A stretch of 60,823 bases of DNA from Chloroflexi bacterium ADurb.Bin180 (GTDB lineage: Bacteria > Chloroflexota > Anaerolineae > UBA2200). Location of the stretch: contig MWCV01000002.1 in NCBI GenBank assembly GCA_002070215.1, positions 98,952 through 159,774 on the forward strand, in the 5' to 3' direction. The first letter of the stretch is position 1; every line of letters begins with the position of its first letter. A program made the translations under genes and the position numbers. This document shows positions 18,451 to 21,480 of this stretch, one piece after another. The notes beneath the pieces are model-generated. The model ran no database searches. It was not told where the DNA came from and saw only the letters and a list, made by a program, of their open reading frames with translations.

Positions 18451-18479
18451 TTGACAGCCACAGCCGATTGCCTTATACT
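18451..18479 (+). promoter_or_regulatory. Consensus promoter of the tRNA-Ala / T-box / leuS transcript
   Basis: TTGACA at 18451-18456 and TATACT at 18474-18479 with exactly 17 bases between. The expected start near 18486 is 7 bases before tRNA-Ala(CGC). I find no convincing promoter between the first tRNA and the T-box stem I (13 bases) or directly in front of the second tRNA, so this promoter probably serves everything to leuS. Confidence 0.8.
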
Positions 18480-18492
18480 GTCCCACGCTCAC

Positions 18493-18565
18493 GGGGATGT
18501 AGCTCAATTGGGAGAGCGCCTCAATCGCACTGAGGAGGTCAGGGGTTCGAATCCCCTCATCTCCA
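18493..18565 (+). tRNA. tRNA-Ala (anticodon CGC)
   Basis: All four stems pair. The acceptor stem carries the G3:U70 wobble pair, the main alanine identity element. The anticodon loop ATCGCAC gives anticodon CGC (codon GCG). CCA is not encoded. It differs from the tRNA at 18794 at two positions only (34 and 38). Confidence 0.95.
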
Positions 18566-18793
18566 TCATACGGGAAAGGCGACGAGCAGGAGCAGTAGGC
18601 CATCCCTCACAGAGAGCCGGGCAGCTAACCAGGTGGGAGCCCGGCACGGACGCCCCGAGGGAGCGTCGAGGCCGAACTCGCCTGAGAGCTGTCGCAGTGA
18701 TTGCCCCGTCACGCTGCTGTGGGTGATCTGGCCTTAGCTGCGAACGTCTGGCGAACGTTACACCGCCGTCAAGTAGTCGGAATTCCCTATCGT

Positions 18794-18866
18794 GGGGATG
18801 TAGCTCAATTGGGAGAGCGCCTCAATGGCATTGAGGAGGTCAGGGGTTCGAATCCCCTCATCTCCA
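18794..18866 (+). tRNA. tRNA-Ala (anticodon GGC) inside the leuS T-box leader
   Basis: All stems are intact and G3:U70 is present. The loop ATGGCAT gives anticodon GGC (codon GCC). No CCA is encoded. It sits between stem IIA/B and stem III of the leader, has no convincing promoter of its own, and is 71/73 identical to the tRNA at 18493. It looks functional rather than decayed. Confidence 0.94.
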
Positions 18867-18951
18867 CCTCCACGGATGGGAGGCCGGGCTGCGCAATGAG
18901 GTAGCGCGGCCTCACCAACCGGTTCCGGCTCAACAGGGTGGTACCACGGAG

Positions 18952-18982
18952 AGCACTTCGTCCCTGGACGAAGTGCTTTTTG
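18952..18982 (+). terminator. T-box-controlled terminator in front of leuS
   Basis: AGCACTTCGTCC pairs with GGACGAAGTGCT and is followed by five T. Its 5' arm overlaps the antiterminator partner GAGC at 18951-18954. In the absence of antitermination it would also end the transcript carrying both tRNA-Ala genes. Confidence 0.9.
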
Positions 18983-19029
18983 TTTGTCCGAATTGCCGAG
19001 TTGTGGCGAGCTGCGCGCAGGAGGCTGAG

Positions 19030-21480
19030 ATGGCACGGAAAAAGTACGAACCAGTCGGTATGCAGAAGAAATGGCAGGCCAGGTGGGAGGCTGACGCCCT
19101 CTATCACGCCCGTGAGGACGATCCGCGTCCCAAGTTTTATGCGCTCACCATGCTGCCCTACACTTCGGGCGACCTTCATATGGGTCACTGGTATGCCATG
19201 GTGCCGTCCGACGCCAGGGCCAGATACCTGCGCATGAAGGGCTACAACGTGATGTTCCCGCCTGGCTTTGATGCGTTCGGTCTCCCGGCCGAGAACGCCG
19301 CGATCAAGCACAAGATCCATCCATACAAGTGGACCATGGACAACGTGGTTCATATGCGCGCGCAATTGCGCTCCATGGGCGCAATGTGGGATTGGCCGCG
19401 CGAGGCAGTAACCTGCGACCCGTCCTACTACAAGTGGACCCAGTGGTTCTTCCTAAAGTTCTGGGAGCACGGTCTGGCCTACCGGGCTATGGCACCGGTG
19501 GACTGGTGCCCTCACTGCCTGACTGTGCTGGCCCGTGAGCAAGTTCTGGAACAGGACCGCACCTGCGAACGTTGCCACACCCCTGTGGTCAAGAAGGACT
19601 TGGAGCAGTGGTTCTTCCGCATCACCAACTATGCCGACGAGCTGCTGGATTTCAGCAAGATCGACTGGCCCGAGCGCGTTCGCACTATGCAGACGAACTG
19701 GATCGGCCGCAGTGAGGGAGTCGAGTTCGACCTGGGCGTCGACGGCTCATCGCGCAAGATCCGTGTCTTCACCACGAGGCCGGACACTGTCTTTGGCATG
19801 AGCTTTGCCGTGCTGTCTCCAGAGCATCCGCTGGTCCACGAGCTCACCAGGCCCAAACACCGGGCGGAGGTCGAGGCTTACGAGCAGCAAGCCAGACGTC
19901 TGGCCGAAATCGACCGGCTGTCATCCAAGCGCGAACGTGTCGGCGTATTCACCGGAACCTACGCCATCAACCCGATGAATGGCGCCAGGGTGCCGCTGTA
20001 TGTGGCCGACTATGTGCTGATGACTTACGGCACGGGTGCGATTATGGGCGTTCCAGCACATGACGAGCGGGATTTCGACTTTGCGCGCCGCCACAACCTG
20101 CCCATCCCCGTGGTGATCGCACCACCGGACTGGGATGGACAGCCGCTTGAGGAAGCCTACATCGGCGATGGAATCATGGTCAACTCGGGACGTTTCGACG
20201 GTCTACCCTGCGCCCAGGGCTGGCAGGCCATTGCTGACGAAATGGCCGCTCGCGGCATTGGTGAGCGCAAGATCAACTACCGCCTCCACGATTGGCTGAT
20301 TTCCCGCCAGCGTTACTGGGGTGCGCCTATCCCGATGGTCTACTGCGACCACTGCGGCATCGTCCCGGTCCCAGAGGATCAACTGCCTGTCTTGTTGCCC
20401 GAGGATGCCGAGTTCCTTCCGACCGGCGACTCTCCGCTCAAGCTCCACAAGGGATTTCTCAACACCACCTGCCCCAGGTGCGGAGCGCCCGCCAAACGCG
20501 AAACCGATACCATGGATACCTTTATGTGTTCCTCCTGGTATCACATGCGCTACACCAGTCCTGGCTATGACCAGGGACCCATCGACCCGGCCAGGGCGCG
20601 CTACTGGCTGCCCGTCGATCAGTACACCGGCGGCATTGAGCACGCCGTAATGCACTTGCTGTACACGCGCTTTTTCACCAAGGTCTGTCGCGACATGGGC
20701 ATTCTCAATCACGACGAACCAATGCTGCGGCTGTTCAACCAGGGGATGATCCTTGGCGAGGATGGTGAGAAGATGAGCAAATCTCGGGGCAACGTCGTTG
20801 ACCCCGACGACCTTGTGCTGACTTTGGGCGCCGACACCGTTCGCACCTACCTCATGTTCCTGGGGCCATGGGATGCGGGTGGACCCTGGAGCACCAATGG
20901 TATCCAGGGAGCACACCGTTTCCTGCAGCGTGTGTGGGACCTGGTAGTGGATCCTCCGAACAGTTCAGAAGGCCAGCCCACCGACGGTGAGATAGCGGCC
21001 CTGAGGCGCATCACGCACAAGACCATCCGCCGTGCCACGGACGACATCGAGGCGTTCCGTTTCAATACCATGATCGCCGGCCTGATGGAGTTCAACAACT
21101 ACCTGGTCAAGGCCAAGGAGACTCTATTAGTCAACTCGGAGGCCTGGACGGAGGCTGTCCGCAGCTTGCTGCTGATGCTAGCGCCCATCGCCCCACACCT
21201 GGCAGAAGAGCTGTGGGCACGCATTGGGGGTACCTACAGCATTCACCAGCAACGCTGGCCAGAGTGGGATGAGGCCGCGGCAGCGGACGAGTCTCTCACC
21301 GTGGTTCTCCAGGTCAATGGGAAGGTGCGCGACCGCATCTCGATTCCTGTCGACATGGATGAAGCACAGGTTCGCCAGTTGGCCCTGTCCAGTCCCAAGG
21401 TACAGCGCTTTGTGGGCAGCCAATCCATCGTCAAAGTCGTGTACGTCCCCGGTAAACTGCTCAACGTAGTGGCCAGGTAG
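19030..21480 (+). CDS. leuS: Leucine--tRNA ligase
   Basis: Charges tRNA-Leu with leucine. The 816-residue class Ia synthetase has the HIGH variant HMGH at residues 50-53, KMSKS near 581-585 (DGEKMSKSRGN), the CP1 editing domain with the TTRPDTVFG box, zinc-type cysteine pairs (WCPHCLTVL..CERCHTPV), and DHCGIVPVP. ATG at 19030 follows CAGGAGG. Expression is predicted to be under the T-box leader just upstream, which reads a leucine codon. Confidence 0.97.
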   Translation: MARKKYEPVGMQKKWQARWEADALYHAREDDPRPKFYALTMLPYTSGDLHMGHWYAMVPSDARARYLRMKGYNVMFPPGFDAFGLPAENAAIKHKIHPYKWTMDNVVHMRAQLRSMGAMWDWPREAVTCDPSYYKWTQWFFLKFWEHGLAYRAMAPVDWCPHCLTVLAREQVLEQDRTCERCHTPVVKKDLEQWFFRITNYADELLDFSKIDWPERVRTMQTNWIGRSEGVEFDLGVDGSSRKIRVFTTRPDTVFGMSFAVLSPEHPLVHELTRPKHRAEVEAYEQQARRLAEIDRLSSKRERVGVFTGTYAINPMNGARVPLYVADYVLMTYGTGAIMGVPAHDERDFDFARRHNLPIPVVIAPPDWDGQPLEEAYIGDGIMVNSGRFDGLPCAQGWQAIADEMAARGIGERKINYRLHDWLISRQRYWGAPIPMVYCDHCGIVPVPEDQLPVLLPEDAEFLPTGDSPLKLHKGFLNTTCPRCGAPAKRETDTMDTFMCSSWYHMRYTSPGYDQGPIDPARARYWLPVDQYTGGIEHAVMHLLYTRFFTKVCRDMGILNHDEPMLRLFNQGMILGEDGEKMSKSRGNVVDPDDLVLTLGADTVRTYLMFLGPWDAGGPWSTNGIQGAHRFLQRVWDLVVDPPNSSEGQPTDGEIAALRRITHKTIRRATDDIEAFRFNTMIAGLMEFNNYLVKAKETLLVNSEAWTEAVRSLLLMLAPIAPHLAEELWARIGGTYSIHQQRWPEWDEAAAADESLTVVLQVNGKVRDRISIPVDMDEAQVRQLALSSPKVQRFVGSQSIVKVVYVPGKLLNVVAR

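Follow-up and report, generated by a model that had tools for sequence, protein, structure and literature searches.

In the 60,823-nucleotide stretch of DNA analysed here (the window), the leader of the leucyl-tRNA synthetase gene leuS is probably a transcriptional leucine T-box whose stem III has a functional tRNA-Ala(GGC) gene inserted at its apex, with the leader doubling as a tRNA precursor. A first-pass annotation of the sequence had proposed that the tRNA is nested in the T-box, and the nesting held: the tRNA called by ARAGORN and Rfam lies inside the match to the T-box family RF00230 (Table 1). The AGTA, AGAGAG, GGTGGGAG, GAACTC and CGTTA motifs, the T-box core and the terminator that it listed are likewise all present in the sequence.

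Table 1 Features of the tRNA-bearing leuS leader (positions in the window).
Feature	Position	Strand	Basis
Sigma70-type promoter, TTGACA-17-TATACT	18451..18479	+	11/12 consensus bases
tRNA-Ala(CGC), opening the predicted transcript	18493..18565	+	ARAGORN identity; Rfam tRNA 68.0 bits
T-box leader (RF00230), tRNA-interrupted	18573..18968	+	50.4 bits, E 4.6e-10, model positions 1-219
Stem I motifs: AGTA 18594-18597, AGAGAG 18611-18616, GGTGGGAG 18632-18639	18594..18639	+	Sequence
Specifier GAACTC, codon CTC (Leu) 18677-18679	18674..18679	+	Sequence
CGTTA motif, stem IIA/B	18756..18760	+	Sequence, RF00230 alignment
Stem III 5' strand AGTCGGAA	18775..18782	+	Pairs with 18923-18930; covariation
Nested tRNA-Ala(GGC), predicted stem III loop	18794..18866	+	Rfam tRNA 68.5 bits, cut-off 29
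Stem III 3' strand TTCCGGCT	18923..18930	+	Pairs with 18775-18782; covariation
Antiterminator: CAGGG / TGGTACC bulge / ACG...CGT / CCCTG	18934..18966	+	Sequence; compensatory changes in relatives
Intrinsic terminator (hairpin plus T run), mutually exclusive with antiterminator	18952..18981	+	Sequence, fold
leuS, leucyl-tRNA synthetase	19030..21480	+	TIGR00396 993.9 bits, cut-off 548

The annotation had allowed for the outcome that no T-box would be hit; a permissive RF00230 search returned an alignment spanning the whole model, in which the tRNA falls within an insert of 141 nt. Its score is below the curated RF00230 cut-off of 93 bits, and a default Rfam search reports no T-box here. Several plain T-boxes of the same genome also score below this cut-off, which is therefore not a strict definition of the family. 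Stem I has its AG-rich bulge and distal loops, and AGTA, AGAGAG and GGTGGGAG are invariant or nearly so among relatives. The specifier codon CTC fits the downstream gene, leuS; GAACTC is invariant in 21 aligned nested leaders, a set chosen for having it, and occurs in nearly all other loci too, as does CGTTA. Stem I is not decayed: across stems I and II of the 21 nested leaders, double-sided changes were found at 17 of the 20 predicted pairs. Helix A1 of the antiterminator reads AGGG/CCCT in 122, AGAG/CTCT in 32 and GGGG/CCCC in 3 of 160 distinct leaders. The alanine codon GCC directly after CTC was considered and rejected; this triplet is part of the stem I base, with which it varies (GTC or ACC in relatives). 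None of the other seven T-boxes found in this genome has a tRNA inside it. At another locus of this genome (L002, 1400-1771, G000:C15), a tRNA-Tyr ends 14 nt upstream of a T-box leader, and the gene downstream of that leader resembles a B3/B4-domain protein.

For the nested tRNA-Ala(GGC), ARAGORN gave bounds of 18794-18868. Three alanine tRNA genes were found in the genome, namely the CGC and GGC genes of this locus and a TGC gene beside tRNA-Ile. A search for a second tRNA-Ala(GGC) found none in this draft assembly (170 contigs), which is about 95% complete, so that one unseen copy is possible. tRNA-Ala(GGC) is expected to read GCC and GCU, and the nested gene is probably essential to its host. 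The CCA end is encoded in many relatives.

The placement of stem III differs from that in the first-pass annotation, which had taken a hairpin just after the tRNA for stem III. The hairpins there are extra, and the strands of the real stem III bracket the tRNA: AGTCGGAA on the 5' side pairs with TTCCGGCT on the 3' side, and the corresponding strands in a sister genome are AGTTGGAA and TTCCAGCT. In relatives, the bases after AGTGG or AGCGG pair with those before AANC-AGGGTGG, with the tRNA in between. In the first set of loci, 355 of 426 cells were paired, compared with 254 ± 8 when partners were shuffled. With all groups pooled, the figures were 706 of 882 (80%) against 490 ± 11 (56%). The shuffles here and below leave kinship uncorrected. 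In 58 composite rows from which the tRNA was removed, 86.7% of cells were paired (58.9% shuffled), a value favoured by the selection of these rows by hand from 88, about 30 having been dropped mostly for lying off the anchor or in a shifted register. The unselected 80% supports the same conclusion. Double-sided changes were found at 7 of 7 pairs in the 58 rows, with 149 such cells against 47 in shuffles, and sliding one strand lowered the pairing to 51% or less.

Other approaches to stem III were less informative. A free duplex search between the tRNA flanks was too blunt (mean z −0.97), and fixed-register pairing with partner shuffles was decisive. The plain minimum-energy fold contained stem III and the terminator, with the cloverleaf absent. 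Stem III lengths of nested and plain T-boxes could not be compared, since the anchor was not located in many of the plain ones. In T-boxes, aminoacylation is sensed by the element RRRxG-stem III-AA, stem III loops are variable, and stem III insertions of unknown function have been noted (PMC7583486). RRRxG-stem III-AA is present in most of the nested relatives; the genus of the window has AAGTA, one base away from RRRxG, and a stem III helix displaced by one base. Because the strands on either side of the tRNA pair and covary, the tRNA is predicted to form the apical insert, or loop, of stem III. The distance from tRNA to T-box core ranges from 7 to 67 nt across loci, and where it is only 7-20 nt, little remains of the stem III loop besides the tRNA.

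We then considered from where the leader is transcribed. The annotation had proposed a readthrough RNA of 18486-19030; the unit is better drawn as 18451-19030, with a promoter and a second tRNA gene, tRNA-Ala(CGC), at its start. In 119 related loci with the same gene order, some of them from repeated genomes, a promoter match of at least 10 of 12 bases occurred upstream of the first tRNA in 98% (0% in shuffled sequence), after the first tRNA in 2% and before the nested tRNA in 8%. The 8% are largely a subset of one family carrying a promoter-like insert. In the window, no promoter was found before stem I or before the nested tRNA, and the possibility that a promoter directly before 18794 makes the tRNA separately found no support there (best site 7/12); in most of the 119 loci, nothing beyond chance precedes the nested tRNA. 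Given this single promoter-like site before the first tRNA, tRNA-Ala(CGC), tRNA-Ala(GGC), both halves of the T-box and leuS most likely belong to a single RNA. In the Bacillota loci that were read, the upstream tRNA-Ala is usually absent, and the promoter-like site precedes stem I. Loci L154-L156, L159-L168 and L173-L175 of family f36 have 60-115 extra nt between the stem III 5' strand and the tRNA, and promoter-like sites lie 14-42 nt upstream of the latter; in these loci, the tRNA may have a promoter of its own within stem III.

We analyzed how far the arrangement extends among bacteria. As the annotation had anticipated, relatives have the tRNA at the same place, for example in 20 of the 41 genomes (36 families) first sampled from the host's class. 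A strict nested pattern matched 91 of 396 genomes of this class and a reversed-pattern control 2, indicating that nesting is not due to chance. Among the named-genome matches listed, nesting was found in Ktedonobacteria (the isolates Dictyobacter kobayashii and D. aurantiacus), Thermomicrobia (Sphaerobacter), Bacillota (Syntrophomonas and others) and MAGs labelled Coprothermobacterota and Armatimonadota. These matches comprise at least 80 listed loci, with 77 Ala(GGC), one Ala(CGC) and two without a tRNA call, of which one lies at the edge of a contig and the other is a T-box with TGGA. Among 398 species sampled from the phylum that includes Syntrophomonas, 70 showed nesting; one of 71 matches, G532:C52, was not tRNA-like. 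Over all loci read, in which genomes recur, the nested tRNA was always Ala (219 GGC, 2 CGC).

The first downstream gene is leuS or, in several Chloroflexota families, ilvE followed by leuS, and both orders fit a leucine signal. Among the 50 Bacillota loci read, 44 have leuS and one (L313) was too short; in the other five (L333-L337), a leucine T-box with nested tRNA-Ala(GGC) lies upstream of an acyl-CoA ligase-type gene that takes the place of leuS. On a midpoint-rooted LeuS tree of a subset of loci, the nested and plain states require at least nine changes on starred branches, and Bacillota carriers fall mostly inside a Bacillota group. The LeuS of the Armatimonadota MAG groups among Chloroflexota, so transfer or misbinning is likely in that case, and single MAG labels are weak ground. 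Overall, many families retain the nesting, and they span at least Chloroflexota and Bacillota. The distribution and the tree fit an old origin with many losses, and transfers are also possible.

Several loci depart from the common plan. Uninterrupted T-boxes with a tRNA upstream occur in L047, L051 and L059, and many plain T-boxes exist; G039 and G032 have two tRNA-Ala genes followed by an uninterrupted T-box. L128 and L231, which probably represent one genome, have Ala(CGC) as the nested tRNA; no GAACTC was found upstream of it, and the distance to leuS on the downstream side is 1.35 kb. L065 (G021, 216-416) has tRNA-Ala(CGC), tRNA-Ala(GGC) and a terminator-like hairpin with no T-box core, followed by an ilvE-like gene and leuS; its T-box has possibly been lost. 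Leucine tRNAs normally carry A at the discriminator position, whereas the T-box bulge reads TGGC, not TGGT, in L135, L137-L146 (mostly family f16), L131 and L150. Seven Bacillota loci (L192, L212, L220, L222, L246, L252 and L267) have the specifier 41-48 nt before the tRNA and no CGTTA, and seem to be without stem II and IIA/B while keeping the tRNA-bearing stem III. L196 and L205, labelled Coprothermobacterota, have a very short stem I without its distal part and keep the specifier and the nested tRNA-Ala(GGC).

In T-box regulation, tRNA charging decides between antiterminator and terminator, and the switching proposed here is drawn from that established biology. RNA polymerase would start upstream of tRNA-Ala(CGC) and pass through stems I and II, the tRNA-bearing stem III and then the antiterminator/terminator region. 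Uncharged tRNA-Leu at the CTC specifier and TGGT bulge would stabilise the antiterminator, allowing leuS expression; with charged tRNA-Leu, the terminator would form. Because both tRNA-Ala genes lie upstream of the terminator, both would be made whether or not leuS is, and a terminated leader would be a tRNA precursor rather than waste. The terminator ends about 115 nt after the tRNA in the window, and sooner in many relatives, which suggests that the leuS decision would be made co-transcriptionally, ahead of tRNA excision or independently of it. The annotation had proposed that RNase P and tRNA 3' processing would sever the sensing half from the antiterminator half. With the tRNA in a hairpin loop, the two halves of the leader could stay paired through stem III after cutting, and stem III may also delay cutting by RNase P or at the 3' end. 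Points counting against this explanation are the AAGTA motif and one-base register shift in the window's genus, the sub-cut-off match, the draft genome and the five Bacillota loci with an acyl-CoA ligase-type gene in place of leuS.

Whether the nesting has a function can be weighed separately. The tRNA may have entered stem III long ago, left the switch unaffected and been retained because it is needed and not easily relocated. We give this an even chance; it shares the anatomy of the preferred explanation and differs from it only in function. It agrees with the variability of stem III loops in T-boxes (PMC7583486), with the search of the genome having found no GGC copy besides the nested gene, and with the many plain relatives and the three loci that have a tRNA before an uninterrupted T-box. 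Passive retention is less easy to reconcile with the changes between nested and plain states on the LeuS tree, which indicate that loss or gain is possible. Processing might instead be part of the control, with RNase P or 3' processing competing with antitermination, or with the cut after the tRNA setting the 5' end and stability of the leuS mRNA; the output of leuS would then depend on tRNA processing as well. The tRNA always lies between sensor and switch, stem III abuts it without a spacer in some families and could hinder RNase P, and the long conservation of one tRNA identity (GGC in 219/221 loci) would fit a coupled function. The wide range of tRNA-to-core distances speaks against such control, a needed tRNA gene would stay in place anyway, and part of one family seems to have its own tRNA promoter; we regard control by processing as unlikely. 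In a fuller form, tRNA-Ala maturation would itself act as a regulatory input: the folding of stem III would gate RNase P and 3' processing, and both the stability of the leuS mRNA and the time for which sensor and antiterminator remain joined would be set by the cuts. This form seems rather improbable. If true, a single old RNA would connect the supply of alanine tRNA with the sensing of leucine.

The remaining explanations dispute the anatomy itself. A decayed T-box relic could lie upstream of a separate tRNA gene that has a promoter and a terminator to itself, as the promoter-like sites in a subset of one family and the silence of the default Rfam search might suggest. We consider this very improbable, since the best site in the window matches only 7/12, most loci have none beyond chance, and stem I, the specifier, stem III and the antiterminator are kept, with covariation. 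The draft state of the window's genome could also have allowed an assembly error to join a tRNA locus to a T-box. The same order recurs across numerous independent assemblies, single-contig genomes and the Dictyobacter isolates among them. This refutes an assembly error, to which we assign next to no probability.

The annotation had known of no T-box with a nested tRNA gene, and we found no description of one in the literature searched; subscription journals were mostly outside its scope, and an earlier mention is possible. As far as we know, the nested tRNA is thus an undescribed and widespread composite anatomy on a known T-box plan. It would place a regulatory RNA and a needed tRNA on one transcript and in one hairpin, in lineages that include at least Chloroflexota and Bacillota. 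Should the T-box work as predicted, termination would yield a useful RNA instead of waste. Stem III would also be seen to tolerate a whole folded domain, and the locus offers a natural test of sensing before tRNA processing. Such leaders can escape standard annotation, as this one scores 50 bits where the cut-off is 93.

Compared with the leucine-type transcriptional T-box (RF00230), the leader has the same stem I, CTC specifier, AGTA and distal loops, CGTTA, TGGN bulge, antiterminator/terminator and downstream leuS; RRRxG-stem III-AA is common to most nested relatives, with AAGTA in the window's genus. It differs in that the stem III loop is a whole tRNA gene, which would make the leader also a tRNA precursor. 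tRNA operons can share a promoter with a protein gene, and here too one promoter would serve tRNA and mRNA; in this case, however, the tRNA interrupts a regulatory RNA instead of lying beside it. The T-box leader of thrS in B. subtilis is cleaved, and a cut inside the present leader could likewise set the mRNA 5' end, although the cuts expected here are those of tRNA maturation, not of general mRNA decay. T-boxes with stem III insertions (PMC7583486) share the insertion site, whereas the insert in the loci described here is a complete tRNA gene whose Ala identity is kept across phyla.
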